Below, one piece after another: positions 2,968 through 25,891 of a DNA stretch of 25,891 bases (position 1 is the first letter of the stretch; every line of letters starts with the position of its first letter). The stretch is from a virus, in the IMG/VR virus record IMGVR_UViG_3300021185_000723, positions 1 to 25,891 of that record. One strand, given 5' to 3'. A program made the position numbers and the translations under genes. The notes beneath the pieces were generated by a model, which saw only the letters and a list, made by a program, of their open reading frames with translations, was not told the origin of the DNA and searched no databases.

Positions 2968-5103
2968 CTAGAAGTGCCAAGCTTTGGGCTTATGAGTCCT
3001 AAAAAACTTCTTCTCAGTAAAGTTAGATACAGGTCTTTCTTTCTTCTTTGATTTCTGAGCGCCAAGGAGTGCTAGACCAGAACTAATAGTCAAGTCAAAC
3101 TTAGTGCGCTTATCTATTTTATACGCAATCCAGTCCTCTAGAGTTCGGTTGAAGTACATGTTTCCAAACTCCTCAGCCTCAGCCTTTATGCCTACGTGAT
3201 CATGTATGTAAGCCTCGATAGCCTGGGCGTGAGACTGTATCACATCCTGCGAGTTAGACGGGATACCTTTAGTCCTTACGTTTACCGATGAGTTGCCTGT
3301 CTTTAAGAAGTCAGGTCGGTCCATTAAATAACCGTCATAACCCCTTGACTCAAAGTACCTTACGATACCGTACTTATTGTTCTCTACAAGTAAAGGATAC
3401 CCGTAAAAGAAAGCACACATCAAAACATCCTCATAGAAGATGCTGGCTAGGTCTGGGCGAGAAGCGTACTCCACTACGAACATATTGGAAGGTACATCCA
3501 TATTGAACTTATTGTACATATGTAGAGCCCCTTTAGAGCCCCGTCCGTCCACTGTAGCGTCTAAGTCATATGAGTCAACCCCTCCAACGCCGATATGACC
3601 GTTAGGGGCCGTCCTTTTGCCTCGCTCGTCATTCTTCTTATTCCTTAGGTGATCGGGTGGCATCCAGGACACCCTAAACCTTCCGTTTGGATCTGGGGAG
3701 AACACAACCTCTTCATCTTTCTTCCTCCATATAAAATTTCCTTTTACCACGGGGTTAGGGAACATATCCTCATTGAACTCTATCTGCTGGTAAATCTTAC
3801 CTATATTAAATAGACTACCCTCAATACTATCTCTAAAGGCCTCGTCCTCTGTAAAGGGGAACTGCCTAATTATCTCATTCAGCTCAGAAGGGTCGTTTTT
3901 AAATGAGCTGCGCTCGTTCTTTAGGTAGGTCTTGCTACCTTGATCGACGACCTCCCCGTCTATACCTTGTATGTGTGCGCTTTGTGATGGGTCCTCGACA
4001 ACAGCATTACCATACACATCAAAGAAACCTTCCAGCGCGTCATAGGCTGGGATGAATATTCTGTATAGCCCAGACCTGGTTCGTCCGTTCTGATTTCTTT
4101 CGTTAGGATCGGAGTCAGCCCACAGCTCTCTATACTCGTCGCCGCCTTTATTCATAGGGTTTACCGTACTTCCCACCAGGGCTTTACCTACTACTTTTTT
4201 ACCTACAATCAAGCAAGTACGCTCAATCCTCCAGGCCTCCCTTATATCAGTAGGTTTCTCCCACTTACCAGCCTCGTCGAGGTATAACATATGTAGCTTC
4301 TCACCGTCATATGCGTTATTAGTAGTGTTCTTCCAGTTGATCACCGTATTGAGGGCGTCACCAATCTGAGAGGTCTTGTTGTTCTTCGTAATACGCTTAG
4401 AGGGCTCACGAAATGCCAGCTCCATACGAGGGTTTGTGGTACCGTCCTGGATGGGCTTAAAGAAGAATGGGTAGCCGCGAAATATCGCAACCACCTTCTT
4501 CATGAATATGTTCTCCTGTGAGTCTTTACCAGTCTTCGACTGTATGCCAAGAAGCTTCTCTTTAACTTGACTAGCTTCGTCCACCAGGACAGAAGAGCAT
4601 ACATTAGTGTAGCCAGAACGACGGCACTTAGTATAAAGCTGACCGAAACAACGAGGATCAGCTTCACAAGCAGCCATGTGGGTAAAGATGTCTTTTTGGA
4701 AAGCAAGGTATGATGGGTATCCGATATCAATTTTAGACCATTGTAGAAACATATAGTGCCTCCCTGTAATATACGTAGGTTCCCCATTATTGTAAAACCA
4801 TACACCGTCACGCCTACGCTGAAACTCTTGTTCGATGTAAGAACGAAACTTGTTCCGAAACTCGGCAGGTTTCTCGAACCACTCATCCATACTGCGTATC
4901 CTACGCATCTCCTCTGGCATAGGAATGCGTTTCCACAGCTGCAACTTCTTTGGTTGGTCATGGAAGAGAATTTCCGATTTGCGCGGTTTCTTCGGTAGTA
5001 CCACGAGTATCCCGTGGAGCTCGATAGTTTCTCCTTCTGTACCGTTAGGGTCGATCTTAATCCCCTTAGCTTCATAACCTTCTATGTCGATTAAATTGGA
5101 CAT
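2968..5103 (-). CDS. terL: Terminase large subunit (DNA packaging ATPase-nuclease)
   Basis: A 711-residue motor protein that cuts concatemeric DNA and pumps it through the portal. Visible motifs in order: a divergent Walker A-like segment CRRSGYTN (residues 160-167), Walker B LYLDEAGK (273-280, D276-E277), an ATPase coupling motif GSTVN (311-315), and in the C-terminal nuclease half the acidic residues of GGVDSYDLD (D510) and VENN (E574), as in the RNase H-like terminase nuclease. The length is normal for a full two-domain TerL. The start ATG at 5103 overlaps the stop of the zinc-ribbon gene by one base. The Walker A lacks the classical GKT, a known variation among terminases. No small terminase was recognised; the coiled-coil gene at 5465-5755 is a candidate by position only. 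Confidence 0.93.
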   Translation of the reverse strand: MSNLIDIEGYEAKGIKIDPNGTEGETIELHGILVVLPKKPRKSEILFHDQPKKLQLWKRIPMPEEMRRIRSMDEWFEKPAEFRNKFRSYIEQEFQRRRDGVWFYNNGEPTYITGRHYMFLQWSKIDIGYPSYLAFQKDIFTHMAACEADPRCFGQLYTKCRRSGYTNVCSSVLVDEASQVKEKLLGIQSKTGKDSQENIFMKKVVAIFRGYPFFFKPIQDGTTNPRMELAFREPSKRITKNNKTSQIGDALNTVINWKNTTNNAYDGEKLHMLYLDEAGKWEKPTDIREAWRIERTCLIVGKKVVGKALVGSTVNPMNKGGDEYRELWADSDPNERNQNGRTRSGLYRIFIPAYDALEGFFDVYGNAVVEDPSQSAHIQGIDGEVVDQGSKTYLKNERSSFKNDPSELNEIIRQFPFTEDEAFRDSIEGSLFNIGKIYQQIEFNEDMFPNPVVKGNFIWRKKDEEVVFSPDPNGRFRVSWMPPDHLRNKKNDERGKRTAPNGHIGVGGVDSYDLDATVDGRGSKGALHMYNKFNMDVPSNMFVVEYASRPDLASIFYEDVLMCAFFYGYPLLVENNKYGIVRYFESRGYDGYLMDRPDFLKTGNSSVNVRTKGIPSNSQDVIQSHAQAIEAYIHDHVGIKAEAEEFGNMYFNRTLEDWIAYKIDKRTKFDLTISSGLALLGAQKSKKKERPVSNFTEKKFFRTHKPKAWHF

Positions 5104-5291: not shown

Positions 5292-5309
5292 AGTTTTTAA
5301 TTTAATTGG

Positions 5310-5383
5310 TACCCCCGCTAGGACTCGAACCTAGGACCCACAGCTTAGAAGGCTGTTGCTCTATCCAGCTGAGCTACGAGGGC
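5310..5383 (-). tRNA. tRNA-Arg (anticodon UCU)
   Basis: A full cloverleaf can be drawn on the minus strand: 7-bp acceptor (GCCCTCG with CGGGGGT, two G-U pairs), D arm GCTC/GAGC with an AGCTGGATA loop, anticodon stem ACAGC/GCTGT with loop CTTCTAA, T arm CTAGG-TTCGAGT-CCTAG, and discriminator A. The anticodon TCT is complementary to 5347-5349 and reads AGA/AGG. The two bases after the discriminator are CC, so CCA is not fully encoded. It lies inside the late operon between the coiled-coil gene and the zinc-ribbon gene, so it is probably cut out of the same transcript. Confidence 0.95.
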
Positions 5384-12431: not shown

Positions 12432-12435
12432 ACTA

Positions 12436-12443
12436 CAAATATA
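12436..12443 (-). promoter_or_regulatory. Possible promoter -7 box at the head of the left arm
   Basis: Minus-strand TATATTTG, then TAGT, then the ATG at 12431; the spacing is the same as at 9319. The nearest TTG upstream is 24 nt away. It probably drives the leftward virion block. Confidence 0.45.
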
Positions 12444-12798
12444 ATGAAGACAGTTTTAGCGCCTTTACAACTTAATTAGTTTGAATGACGCTCCGTAGCT
12501 ACTGTTTTATTACTTACATAAGTAATCCTAAAGACAGCCTCGTAGGTTTAAAACATCTATGAAGCTTTATCGCTGAAGAGCTTTGGCGAAGTTACAACTT
12601 TTTTCTTACAAAGTCAAGTCAGCAATATGCTTTAATGAAACCCCCTAAGACTCTATGGTACAGCTTATTAACCAGTATAGAGAGGTGGTTTGTGGATAAC
12701 TCCGTTTACAAGTCAACGCAAAAGGCGGCGAAAAAAGGGGATCGCCAAAAAATTCCTGTGTAATACAGAGTTTGGGGATTATGTGTATCTATGATGGC
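12444..12798. other. Gene-free strand-switch region, candidate origin
   Basis: No credible gene in either strand. To its left genes run leftward, to its right they run rightward. It contains an 8-bp hairpin ATTACTTA-CA-TAAGTAAT (12509-12526), a small hairpin followed by a T run at 12590-12604 (AAGTT-AC-AACTT then Ts), a perfect DnaA box (12691-12699), a purine-rich stretch with a GGCG/CGCC pairing (12724-12746), and a short CTGT/ACAG hairpin (12756-12768). The hairpin-saturated field starts directly after it. A replication origin is plausible but unproven; no repeat cluster typical of iteron origins was seen. Confidence 0.45.
12691..12699 (-). promoter_or_regulatory. Perfect DnaA-box sequence
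   Basis: TGTGGATAA, the exact reverse complement of the consensus DnaA box TTATCCACA. Two weak look-alikes follow (TGTGTAATA near 12758, TGTGTATCT near 12783). The phage encodes a protein resembling the DNA-binding domain IV of DnaA (21198-21566), which recognises such boxes. A single 9-mer can occur by chance. Confidence 0.5.
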
Positions 12799-14067
12799 TC
12801 GGTGGCTTCCACCGAAACGGCAAGACCAGACCCAGTCCCTCAGAATCTTAGGAGATTCTGCTACAACTTCTAGCTTTTAACTACCTAGCTTACAGCTAGT
12901 TAGTTAGATTCGATTACCCAAAGGGTAGAGCTAAACAGCAGAGAATGGTTTTTAAACCATTGAGAGTCAAGGAGGGACAATCCCCCTACTGAACCATAGG
13001 TTCAACTATTAACCTTCAATACTGAAGGTTCATTAACACTTCAAGAAGTGTTAGCTAAGTAGCTGAGGGAGGTGGTTTTGCCAACGCCTAGGAATCCCTA
13101 AAGGGATCGTGTCTTGGTAGTCAAGGCATGAGTATCAACTTGTTGATACCGTAGGTTGAATGGAGTAGAGATAGAGTATATGAAGAAGGAGTCTTATGAC
13201 TTCTTCATTTACTCTTTATCTCTTAAGGTTTGGTTTTGGAAGTCGACCAACCTTGAGGAACTCAAATCTCTCAACAATGTCGAAGACATTAGAAAACAAA
13301 TCAGCTATGCTGAAAGACCTCAAGAAAGCTGTAAACAGCTTTGTTTACTCTCCAACGGAGAGCAAGTTGGCAAACTGCCGACTCCAAGTTACTGAACTTG
13401 TTCAGTTCCTTCAGTCCATCGAAGTTCCGAAGGAAGAGGCTAAGAAGCCAAAGGCTTCTAAGTCAAAGTCCAAATCCAAGCCGAAGGCTACTAAGAAGCC
13501 AAAGGCTTCGAAGTCGGAGTCTATGACTGTAAGTCATAAGGAGATTGCCGATGCTCTTGGCTTAAAAGCCAAGTCTCCAAAGCCGAAGGCTTCTAAGTCT
13601 TCGAAGAAGACGGGGCGGAAGGCTGAAATCGAAGCCCTTCTATCTTCTGGTAAGAAGATGAAGAGAGCAGAACGTTCCGTTCTGAACAAGGAGTTGTTTG
13701 CTCTGCAAACAGCAGAGAGACGCTCTTCGAAGAAGAGCAAGTCAAAAGCTATCCGTCGTCCTAAGAGGACGTCAGAAGCTGGTCTTGAGTTAACTCAAGC
13801 TAAGGACGGCATCGGAATTGGCAAAGCCAAAAAGACAAAAGCTGTTGCTCTTGACGGTAGTCAAGCTATGCCCTTCGAACCTCGTAAAGAGGTTCCAGTA
13901 GTCGAACCAAAGGTTCGTAAGAAGGAGTTCATGAAAGTTACCCTCTTAGAGGGTGAGACTCCTCAGGAAGCGATGGCTCGACTCCGCTCTGCCGAGATCG
14001 AGGCTGCCCGCCTTGAAGCTGAAGCTTTGATTGCTGACACTGCTCCATTCTGATAACGTAGTTATCA
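12799..14067 (+). repeat. Field of tandem short perfect hairpins
   Basis: By hand I count 32 perfect inverted repeats with stems of at least 6 bp and loops of 2-5 nt in 1269 bases; chance predicts about one (1269 x 4 loop lengths / 4096). Examples: 12799-12815 (7 bp), 12841-12860 (8), 12944-12961 (8), 13011-13030 (8), 13034-13053 (8), 13132-13149 (8), 13325-13342 (7), 13443-13459 (7), 13522-13538 (7), 13556-13573 (8), 13642-13659 (7), 13668-13684 (7), 13722-13738 (7), 13877-13895 (7), 14051-14067 (7). The stem sequences differ, so this is not a copied repeat. Nine lie in non-coding DNA and 23 in the histone-like gene, in all three codon phases. The role is unknown. Confidence 0.85.
13277..14053 (+). 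CDS. Lysine-rich histone H1-like protein encoded by a hairpin string
   Basis: A 258-residue protein. The ATG at 13277 is preferred over one 81 bases upstream because it follows the leader-like TCAAATCTCTCAAC seen in other genes here. Residues 1-50 form a short helical domain (SAMLKDLKKAVNSF, LQVTELVQFLQSIEVP). From about 53 to 190 it is Lys/Ser/Ala/Pro-rich, with repeated KPKASKS units like the tails of histone H1 or bacterial H1-like proteins. The C-terminus (225-258) is an acidic/Ala helix. DNA compaction or RNA binding is inferred from composition. Its reading frame is filled with perfect hairpins, with both start and stop codons lying in stems, so codon choice seems bent to RNA or DNA folding. 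Confidence 0.75.
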   Translation: MSKTLENKSAMLKDLKKAVNSFVYSPTESKLANCRLQVTELVQFLQSIEVPKEEAKKPKASKSKSKSKPKATKKPKASKSESMTVSHKEIADALGLKAKSPKPKASKSSKKTGRKAEIEALLSSGKKMKRAERSVLNKELFALQTAERRSSKKSKSKAIRRPKRTSEAGLELTQAKDGIGIGKAKKTKAVALDGSQAMPFEPRKEVPVVEPKVRKKEFMKVTLLEGETPQEAMARLRSAEIEAARLEAEALIADTAPF

Positions 14068-21197: not shown

Positions 21198-21566
21198 ATG
21201 AATGATGACATCAAAAGGCTACAAGAGGAGTACTATGTTACCCTCGACCTCACCCCCAACACATCTAGGAAAGCACCACAAGTTCAGGCACGAGCCGCTC
21301 TGATGGTCGCTATGGCTAGTCACATGACCAAGACAGAAGTAGGCAAAAGCTTTGGAAAAGACCACAGCACAGTCATACATCATCAGGGTCAGCATGAAGC
21401 TAACCTGTTCTCATGGGATGGATACGAAGAGAAGTACATGTTAGCCATGAGGCTGTGCAATGTACACCTTCGATACAACAGCATTGAGGACAAAATAAAA
21501 ACTATTCGAATCCAAATCAAAAGGCTAGAGGGTCTAGCTGAAAATCTAAAACAAGAACTCGTATGA
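21198..21566 (+). CDS. DnaA domain IV-like DNA-binding protein
   Basis: A 122-residue protein. Residues 12-65 match the C-terminal DNA-binding domain of DnaA: TSRKAPQVQARAALMVAMASH (helices), EVGKSFGKDHSTVIHH (47-62) with the signature D-H-S-T-V that reads the DnaA box. The AAA+ ATPase part of DnaA is absent, so it cannot melt an origin as DnaA does; the C-terminal third is a charged helix (EDKIKTIRIQIKRLEGLAENLKQEL). It may recruit or block host DnaA at a phage box such as 12691-12699, or act as a regulator. It heads the replication operon. Confidence 0.82.
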   Translation: MNDDIKRLQEEYYVTLDLTPNTSRKAPQVQARAALMVAMASHMTKTEVGKSFGKDHSTVIHHQGQHEANLFSWDGYEEKYMLAMRLCNVHLRYNSIEDKIKTIRIQIKRLEGLAENLKQELV

Positions 21567-23909: not shown

Positions 23910-24219
23910 CGACAAACAGGTAGGCGGTAAGCACTACAAGGAAATGAAGATTCAACCCACTGACTTCATAGCAGCCAATGACATACCTTTTATAGAGGGG
24001 AATGTGATTAAATACGTATGCCGACACGAATTCAAGAACGGCAAGGAGGATGTCCTGAAGGCTATCCACTATTTAAATCTACTACTCGAATACAAATACT
24101 CGGATGAACGTAACGATATACAAAGACCTGTACAAGAAGTCCAAGGCGGATGCCCATGTGATTCCGATTGTGACTGCCCTCAAAAGAATACAGGAGGGGA
24201 CTTCTGCGCCAACGATTGA
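23899..24219 (+). CDS. DUF3310-like protein
   Basis: A 106-residue protein. The first 65 residues follow the DUF3310 pattern: SDKQVGGKHYKEMKIQPTDFI (4-24), then IEGNVIKYVCRHEFKNGKEDVLKAIHYLNLLLE (32-64). The family is common in phages; to my recollection it is related to the T7 gp1.7 nucleotide kinase, which I cannot check here. A Cys-rich end (CPCDSDCDCP, about 85-95) overlaps the next gene in another frame. The ATG at 23899 is favoured as the conserved part begins there. Confidence 0.8.
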   Translation: MKHSDKQVGGKHYKEMKIQPTDFIAANDIPFIEGNVIKYVCRHEFKNGKEDVLKAIHYLNLLLEYKYSDERNDIQRPVQEVQGGCPCDSDCDCPQKNTGGDFCAND

Positions 24220-25891
24220 AGCTGTTCGTGGTGGAGAAAAAGATTTCAAAAAGAGCCTACCCGTTGTACTATTCAGCGGTGAGTTTGGCGACAGGAAAGA
24301 CCAAGCGATTGAGAAGCATAGCGGATACATTGTTCTGGACTTCGATCATATTGATGTTACGACATCCAAAGCTCTTCTCAGTACAGACCCGTATGTGTAC
24401 AGCTGTTGGGTATCTCCGTCGGGTGACGGCCTCAAGGCGTTAGTCAAGATAACACATCCTGAGAGGCACCGCGATCACTTTCGAGCGTTACGCACATACT
24501 TCGGCAAGCAGTACGACCTAGAGGTAGACGAGTCAGGCATCAACGAATCCCGTGCATGCTTTGAGTCCTATGACCCAGACATCATCATCAAGGATGAATC
24601 ATCTACCTTCGGGGCATTCGCTACTGAGAAGAGTGAGTCGCAGGTAGCTGTCTCACAATCAGGAGTTTACACAGATTACTTAAAGTTAAATCTAGCTGCA
24701 CGTATGATACGTCAATGCGACGATGGGGAGAAACATGCTACCCTTCTTCGTGCTGCTAGGCTGTGTGGTGGCTACGTAGCCGCTGGACGTATGGAGGAAG
24801 ACGAGGTGATTCGTGTACTAACCCGTGAGATACTCAAGCGTGATGTAGACGACGAGAAGCATACCGTAAACACCATACGAGACGCTATCGAGAAGGGCAA
24901 GCAAGACCCTATCCGAGCTACCATCGACGACGAGAAGAAGGCTCAACGTGAGATGCTCGTTAATGACGGGGACATGTCTTTCATATCCTCAGACGATGAG
25001 GACTTCAGATGGATTGATGACTACGCTAACGGACGTATACCTGTAGGCTTAGACACGGGCGACAAGGATCTCGATCAGTACTTCAGGTACAAACGAGAGT
25101 TCACTATCATAAATGGTCATAGTAATGTCGGTAAGACTACGATGGCTCTGTACCTCATGGTTAACGCTACCGTGCGGCATGGGTGGAAGTGGGTGGTTTA
25201 CTCGTCAGAGAACCGTACAGCATCACTTAAGATGACCCTCATACAATTTGCCTTAAACAAGCCAATCAGTTCTATGAACTATATGGAGCGTAAGAAGGCA
25301 TACGAGTGGGTAGGGAAGTACTTTACAGTGATTAGCAACAAGCAAGTGTACAGCTACTCAGACATCATTGTGTTCCTTGAGAAGGTAATGAAGCAGCAGG
25401 AGGTTGACGCTGTGTTTGTAGACCCATACAACAGCCTCAAGCTTGACATGGGTAAGTCGGGTATCGGTGTACACGAGTATCACTACGAGGCAGCCTCTGA
25501 GTTCCTTACATTCTCTACAGCAAACAACATCGCAGTGTGGTTGAACATGCATGCTGTTACCGCTTCACAGCGGATCAAGGGTGAGGACGGCTTGCCCGTA
25601 GCTCCATACGCTGAGGACACCGAGGGTGGAGGTAAGTTCGTGAATAGAGCTGACTCGTTCTTGACTATACACAGAAAGGTGCAACACCCAACACCATCTG
25701 AGCGCAAGATTACAGAGTTTCATGTACGTAAGGTGCGTGACGTAGAAACAGGTGGTGAACCCACACCGCTTGAAGAACCATTTAGATTTGAAATGAACAC
25801 GTCTAGAACTGGTTTCCGTGCTTTCAAGACTCAGAGAATGATGTTTGAGTCTGTTGATTTGGAGGGGGGAAAGCAAGAACCTTTTGTTTTT
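24104..25891 (+). CDS. Primase-helicase, cut by the window edge
   Basis: A frame open for 596 codons to the end of the window. Residues of about 50-165 match the VirE N-terminal/BT4734-like domain, a prim-pol-like unit common in Bacteroidota elements: LDFDHID (78-84; acidic D79, D81) and SPSGDGLKALVK (104-115). Residues 325-500 form a RecA/DnaB-type helicase: Walker A GHSNVGKTT (338-346), Walker B VDAVFVDP (D440), then WLNMHAV (about 480) like the Q/H motif 4. It would unwind the fork and make primers. The ATG at 24104 overlaps the DUF3310-like gene by 116 bases, a long overlap; a later start is possible, but the primase part begins soon after. Confidence 0.88.
   Translation, partial: MNVTIYKDLYKKSKADAHVIPIVTALKRIQEGTSAPTIEAVRGGEKDFKKSLPVVLFSGEFGDRKDQAIEKHSGYIVLDFDHIDVTTSKALLSTDPYVYSCWVSPSGDGLKALVKITHPERHRDHFRALRTYFGKQYDLEVDESGINESRACFESYDPDIIIKDESSTFGAFATEKSESQVAVSQSGVYTDYLKLNLAARMIRQCDDGEKHATLLRAARLCGGYVAAGRMEEDEVIRVLTREILKRDVDDEKHTVNTIRDAIEKGKQDPIRATIDDEKKAQREMLVNDGDMSFISSDDEDFRWIDDYANGRIPVGLDTGDKDLDQYFRYKREFTIINGHSNVGKTTMALYLMVNATVRHGWKWVVYSSENRTASLKMTLIQFALNKPISSMNYMERKKAYEWVGKYFTVISNKQVYSYSDIIVFLEKVMKQQEVDAVFVDPYNSLKLDMGKSGIGVHEYHYEAASEFLTFSTANNIAVWLNMHAVTASQRIKGEDGLPVAPYAEDTEGGGKFVNRADSFLTIHRKVQHPTPSERKITEFHVRKVRDVETGGEPTPLEEPFRFEMNTSRTGFRAFKTQRMMFESVDLEGGKQEPFVF

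Follow-up and report, generated by a model that had tools for sequence, protein, structure and literature searches.

Bacterial origins of replication (oriC) contain clusters of DnaA boxes. As for hairpins, several described systems bear on the phage locus reported here: (i) the coding palindromes of Nematomorpha mitochondria, which their authors regard as by-products, possibly parasitic ones, of the conversion of repeats (PMC6649704); (ii) RNA hairpins, including those of rRNA, in which perfect stems, compensation in one step and inversion of the loop are the signature of template switching (PMC8794818); (iii) the hairpin promoters of phage N4 (PMC4496689); and (iv) the GOLLD, ROOL and OLE RNAs, large and elaborately folded elements of phages and bacteria whose function is unknown (PMC12286853). 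In the literature searched, outside of which most subscription papers lay, no description of a hairpin-filled phage gene was found.

The DNA considered here, hereafter the window, is the whole stretch of 25,891 nucleotides of IMG/VR record IMGVR_UViG_3300021185_000723, i.e., a 25.9-kb viral fragment. Its leftward genes include those for the terminase and the portal protein, whose kin are found in Flavobacterium elemo phages, Cellulophaga phages and the podovirus MW202828 (60.9-kb), and a 1435-aa protein of a relative matches the crAssphage muzzle domain; the phage is described here as one of Bacteroidota-type bacteria. A tRNA-Arg (TCT) is located at 5307-5383 on the minus strand, a tRNA being also present in the relatives tested. 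The product of the gene at 24104-25891 joins a DnaB-like helicase domain to an N-terminal domain of BT4734-like/VirE type and is probably a replication primase/helicase. No named phage gave a nucleotide match; the only pattern match in a bacterial genome (L053) was treated as chance, as no common locus surrounds it.

The preliminary description had spotted a field of hairpins adjoining a noncoding gap. This field is real and far larger than described: it begins past 12798 and, in a continuation that had been missed, runs through a whole coding gene as far as 14067. The array (12799-14067, ~1.27 kb) holds 28 perfect hairpins with stems of 6-8 bp and loops of 3-5 nt. Its leader part (12799-13149) contributes eight perfect hairpins of 6-8 bp and is followed by a long terminal hairpin (13167-13221) which is invariant in close relatives and varied elsewhere, with its pairing kept. 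The gene of a 258-aa Lys/Ser/Pro-rich protein (13277-14053, plus strand) contains 18 perfect hairpins, and the last hairpin of the array, TGATAAC[GTA]GTTATCA (14051-14067; here and below, loops are given in brackets), contains the stop codon. The start of this gene is placed at 13277 (MSKTLENK) and not at the ATG at 13196, because the latter lies inside a hairpin and frame-breaking indels occur downstream of it in relatives. This conserved array, including a whole gene, is a separate and more unusual finding than the origin which had been proposed for the gap.

Synonymous shuffling of the 258-aa gene, which keeps the protein and its codon usage, gave a mean of 2.3 hairpins and a maximum of 7 in 300 trials, as against the 18 observed; in 15 other genes of the window (0 to 3 hairpins), the same procedure detected no excess. 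Relatives of the hairpin clade with a complete gene have 9-20 hairpins where 1-3 are expected, and the Lys-rich gene has 10 and 6 hairpins in the deep branches L025 and L049, respectively. The outgroup homologs L124-L127 have 2-4 hairpins in the gene, which is within chance. Furthermore, hairpin density at the locus is 5 to 12 per 400 bp versus ~0.28 genome-wide; in G001-G003 and in the window alike, the 400-bp bin with most hairpins falls here (in the window, inside the CDS), and counts elsewhere in the genome match chance. In 95 kb of random bacterial DNA, 5 hairpins per 400 bp were never exceeded. Within the CDS, nearly all loops measure 3 or 4 nt, and most triloops (61/97) have their first base at codon position 3, i.e., in the register that leaves the protein most freedom. 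The hairpins show no 10.5-bp phasing (vector strength 0.07).

A second dense hairpin cluster was observed in the gene after the Lys-rich gene in L035 (~4600-5000 in locus coordinates; 11 hairpins per 400 bp) and L025 (~1500-1900; 7 hairpins per 400 bp).

Hairpins occupy the same positions in relatives, and their changes come as matched pairs, so that nucleic-acid folding as such seems to matter at this locus. In the CDS (alignment A3, 13 sequences), 29 two-sided pairs were counted versus 16.2 in shuffles and, in the leader (alignment A4, 8 sequences), 21 versus 14.5; in both cases, 0 of 500 shuffles were as high. When the pairing partner was slid by 1-3 columns, the signal disappeared from both the cells paired and the covariation score; one covariation measure, further pair types, was not above shuffles. 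Paired changes can even alter the protein, as in EPKA, GAGCC[gaa]GGCTC, versus EPKV, GAACC[aaa]GGTTC. Moreover, loops are inverted on identical stems in 19 of 126 loop pairs (in 5000 null trials, the mean was 2.2 and the maximum 8; nested stems are counted more than once), for instance in TACAGCT[ATTT or AAAT]AGCTGTA (L022 and L039) and TCGACC[ATA or TAT]GGTCGA (L033 and L035). RNase P, used as control, also shows inversion (3 of 15 pairs, confined to a single variable stem) and, in consequence, inversion marks template switching, not function. Template-switch copying probably keeps the stems perfect. The one-step compensatory changes and inverted loops are those described in RNA hairpins, but in rRNA inversion is rare (69 inversion-only among thousands of events; PMC8794818) and in the short phage locus it is frequent.

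Whole hairpins of the leader (12781-12990; L002-L051) are swapped as modules among close relatives, which results in a mosaic; L005, for example, is similar to L007 over the left half of the leader but differs from it elsewhere.

An array that is nothing but a mutational by-product, in which a template-switch hot spot perfects near-palindromes where these are tolerated, with no function, is considered unlikely. It would account for the perfect stems and loop inversions (PMC8794818), it is how the coding palindromes of Nematomorpha are explained by their authors (PMC6649704), the protein has low complexity and tolerates change, and the outgroup homologs work without hairpins. Nevertheless, the array occupies one locus only in a genome of 55-64 kb whose counts elsewhere match chance, its hairpins stay in place from lineage to lineage and show double changes, and some hairpins overlie conserved protein motifs such as KAVNS. 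In any case, the Nematomorpha palindromes are the nearest precedent. Both systems have perfect inverted repeats in CDS, codon choice bent to pairing (in the phage, repeats go beyond codon chance, 18 vs. 2.3) and a proposed role of template switching. But while the palindromes of Nematomorpha reach 284 bp, are scattered over many genes and are not conserved in position (PMC6649704), the phage has ~28 tiny hairpins (arms of 6-9 bp) at one locus, in positions common to relatives, and lacks long, scattered, unstable arms.

If the array has a function, it may act as RNA or as DNA. In the former case, which is judged somewhat unlikely, leader and gene would be one heavily folded early transcript, either (i) a message with a structured noncoding RNA attached; or (ii) a message-particle with its own Lys-rich product. 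Such a transcript would fit the predicted RNA fold of 12770-13270 (-189.5 kcal/mol versus -135 in shuffles), which has a z-score of -8.8 on the plus strand versus -6.9 on the minus strand, as well as the strong covariation, the extent of the array, from just past a possible promoter for rightward transcription to the stop codon, and the nature of the encoded protein, which is basic and mostly disordered between helices (a PDB fold search gave no match at E 0.001). However, in most relatives the locus folds better than shuffles on both strands, about equally, and the loops of the leader are strand-symmetric (CAAG 8 / CTTG 6, TTTA 6 / TAAA 5): they are about equally frequent as sequence and as reverse complement, so neither strand is favoured, and they flip freely from one to the other. 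A separate promoter-like motif stands between leader and gene in outgroup relatives. Finally, only tRNAs scored above gathering in the window and 7 relatives when compared with Rfam 15, which includes GOLLD and ROOL. The phage array shares with GOLLD, ROOL and OLE RNAs the condition of a large, elaborately folded element in phages, but it is a simple row of hairpins which runs on through a coding gene (PMC12286853). The weak Rfam matches at the locus were to eukaryotic microRNAs and similar families (best E 0.096, far below cut-off) and were discarded.

Action as DNA is weakly preferred: it is rated only a little above action as RNA, and a by-product without function follows at a short distance. 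Of 121 triloops, 111 are closed by a pair with a pyrimidine on the 5' side; among chance hairpins, whatever the length of their loops, the share is below half. Such closure, together with the strand symmetry, suits small DNA hairpins, but RNA would favour such pairs too. Contrary to a role as DNA at an origin, the array lies only to the right of the boxes described below and stops at the gene end, as a transcript feature would. Other potential discriminators between RNA and DNA were rejected: (i) the asymmetry of G.U versus A.C, which had looked suggestive when first counted, since the method revealed no excess of G.U in E. coli rRNA or in 22 RNase P genes; (ii) the missing G.U in perfect stems, which is a product of stem selection; and (iii) the purine content of loops, uninformative at 0.51 in both leader and RNase P.

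A further use of DNA hairpins, as promoters for an N4-like virion RNA polymerase, is highly improbable. The promoters of N4 are likewise phage DNA hairpins with tiny stems and loops of 3 nt, extruded by supercoiling; but N4 has three promoters of conserved sequence and a giant T7-like polymerase (PMC4496689), and neither is seen here, where the 28 hairpins have no common stem or loop sequence. No T7/N4-type polymerase was found; G001 encodes a giant protein of 3216 aa without Pfam or PHROG match, for which remote homology is conceivable.

Genes diverge at the locus. The preliminary description had reported a gap of 367 bases between them: the divergence is real, but the gap measures 845 bp, since it extends from the end of the leftward ORF (12431) to 13276. 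The structure of 12432-12798 is ordinary (fold versus shuffles, z = -1.0). Several putative control elements can be differentiated in it. A Bacteroidota-type -7 promoter element, TATATTTG (12436-12443, minus strand), is found directly before the leftward gene; it has the TAnnTTTG motif, the consensus of Bacteroidota promoters, which occurs as TATATTTG or TATCTTTG on the minus strand at the same place in most relatives checked. A conserved noncoding block (12449-12640), with ~77-93% identity between relatives according to alignment A1 and BLAST, is a probable divergent promoter/operator region. This block is flanked by a 22-nt direct repeat (12452-12473 and 12579-12600, 77% identical); the first consensus tried for iteron-like repeats yielded just one two-copy 22-nt repeat. 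At 12454-12483 (plus strand), TTTTAG (TTTTTG in relatives) plus TTAGTTTG (TATGTTTG in relatives), identified from A1 and a motif scan, form a possible rightward promoter.

At the head of the leader, the conserved element GTAATACAGANNNTGGGGATTAT (12760-12783, plus strand) is retained in divergent form in outgroup G054. The leader core (12760-12990, GTAATACAGA..GGGGATTAT to ACAATCCCCC) is retained even in this array-less outgroup and could constitute a small structured RNA in itself. The fold suggests a long-range pairing of GGGGATT with AATCCCC, whose sequence hardly varies among relatives, and the leader of L039 carries the conserved GTAATACAGATCGTG element duplicated in tandem. In G054, L025, L028, L032 and L049, the right half of the leader is swapped for a Bacteroidota-type promoter motif (e.g., TTGACA...TATCTTTGC) directly before the Lys-rich gene and, hence, leader and gene look like separate units.

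By hand count, approximately 20 of the 38 IMG/VR contigs with the conserved block stop within 1.5 kb to its right, and seemingly none within 1.5 kb to its left. The ends to the right (12640-14067) may reflect either an assembly or sequencing break caused by the array, strain variation, or a physical break of the DNA.

The gap had also been proposed as a candidate origin, on account of an exact DnaA box. This box, TGTGGATAA at 12691-12699, is indeed the only exact one in the window. Nonetheless, a single exact box (TTATCCACA, 1 versus 0.25 expected) is not beyond chance, because 21 of 100 shuffles have at least one; among 34 relatives, 11 have an exact box and 18 a box with at most 1 mismatch. 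The box belongs to a tandem DnaA-box-like pair, TTGTAAACG-GAG-TTATCCACA (12691-12711, minus strand; TTATNMACA-N3-TTATNMACA), in which the two 9-mers are spaced by 12 bp from start to start and each is a variation on TTATNMACA. At a threshold of at most 2 mismatches across both 9-mers, the pair is found at the locus in 23 of 34 contigs and is below threshold in 11; among relatives, it keeps its spacing and orientation while the letters change. In the near-complete genomes G001-G003 (both strands, 351 kb of strand), it occurs at the locus only, once per genome. None of 392 permuted motifs attained 23 contigs (the best attained 10), and the signal appears at 12-bp spacing only; as the consensus was picked after data inspection and the 34 contigs are kin, this evidence, though strong, is not independent. 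Outgroup G054 has the locus but not the pair, and no clear pair is seen in the array-bearing L014, L022, L033, L035 and L039.

Like the boxes of bacterial oriC, which lie at a skew minimum, the TTATNCACA-like 9-mers are arranged head to tail, and the pair provides a DnaA-box cluster, defined by a post hoc consensus. In contrast to oriC, the phage locus has two boxes only (one of them degenerate in the window), no demonstrated DUE or DnaA-trio, and a phage-encoded protein that corresponds only to domain IV of DnaA. The cumulative GC-skew minimum, suggested earlier as a check, is less than 20 bp (17-18 bp) from the pair in two of the three near-complete relatives, G002 and G001, but 2.3 kb away in G003. 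In G001, the skew maximum is located at a convergent gene junction, 13 kb away in one direction and 44 kb in the other, and not opposite the minimum; the skew, therefore, tracks gene direction. For this reason, a replication origin at the divergent gap, although somewhat strengthened by the box pair, stays plausible only: the uniqueness of the pair and the nearby skew minimum speak for it, and the 11 of 34 contigs and the outgroup without the pair, together with the displaced minimum of G003, speak against it. It is a doubtful though serious alternative that the gap is an ordinary divergent promoter region, with no origin, where the DnaA-like pair is a remnant or the site of another regulator. 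Bacteroidota-type promoter elements on both sides, a skew that shifts with gene direction and the contigs without a pair agree with it, while a pair that is single per genome and constant in spacing and orientation despite letter changes does not.

The DnaA domain IV-like protein reported in the preliminary description (21198-21566, plus strand, 122 aa) was confirmed: it belongs to Bac_DnaA_C (PF08299) with a score just above the curated cut-off (32.4 versus 31.5 bits, E 9.6e-8), contains GKDHSTVIHH and has no ATPase domain. The suggestion that the phage borrows or blocks host DnaA found no support. The protein is present in most relatives, among them G001-G004 and G009, but also in array-less G054 and in MW202828 and, in consequence, it is a clade trait and not the partner of this box alone.

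Taking the gap and the array together, the preferred reading, with a probability of roughly one in three, is a divergent control region with a DnaA-box pair at an origin and an adjoining hairpin array acting as DNA. Under this reading, host DnaA, perhaps with the domain IV-like protein of the phage, would open the phage DNA at the box pair; strand parting at the origin, or negative supercoiling, would let the hairpins fold on single strands; and the folded hairpins would hold, protect or mark the DNA for the phage replication proteins, such as the helicase/primase encoded downstream at 24104. Template-switch copying inside the hairpins would repair mismatches and flip loops, and perfect stems would result even within the CDS.

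The usual view of a gene is that of a protein code which leaves some room for other signals. Here, almost all of a gene, together with its leader, is apparently devoted to hairpins that paired changes conserve within one phage clade. This may tentatively be regarded as a new type of phage element: a gene selected for its own chain of nucleic-acid hairpins more than for its protein, beside a DnaA-box origin, which would act on opened DNA or on the transcript and be maintained by template switching. The box pair offers a specific candidate origin that can be put to the test, in Bacteroidota phages of a group that has received little study. Furthermore, the homologous protein of the outgroup, which lacks the hairpins, offers a natural before-and-after comparison that bears on the use of a dense array to the phage and on the power of template switching by itself to create and preserve hairpins.
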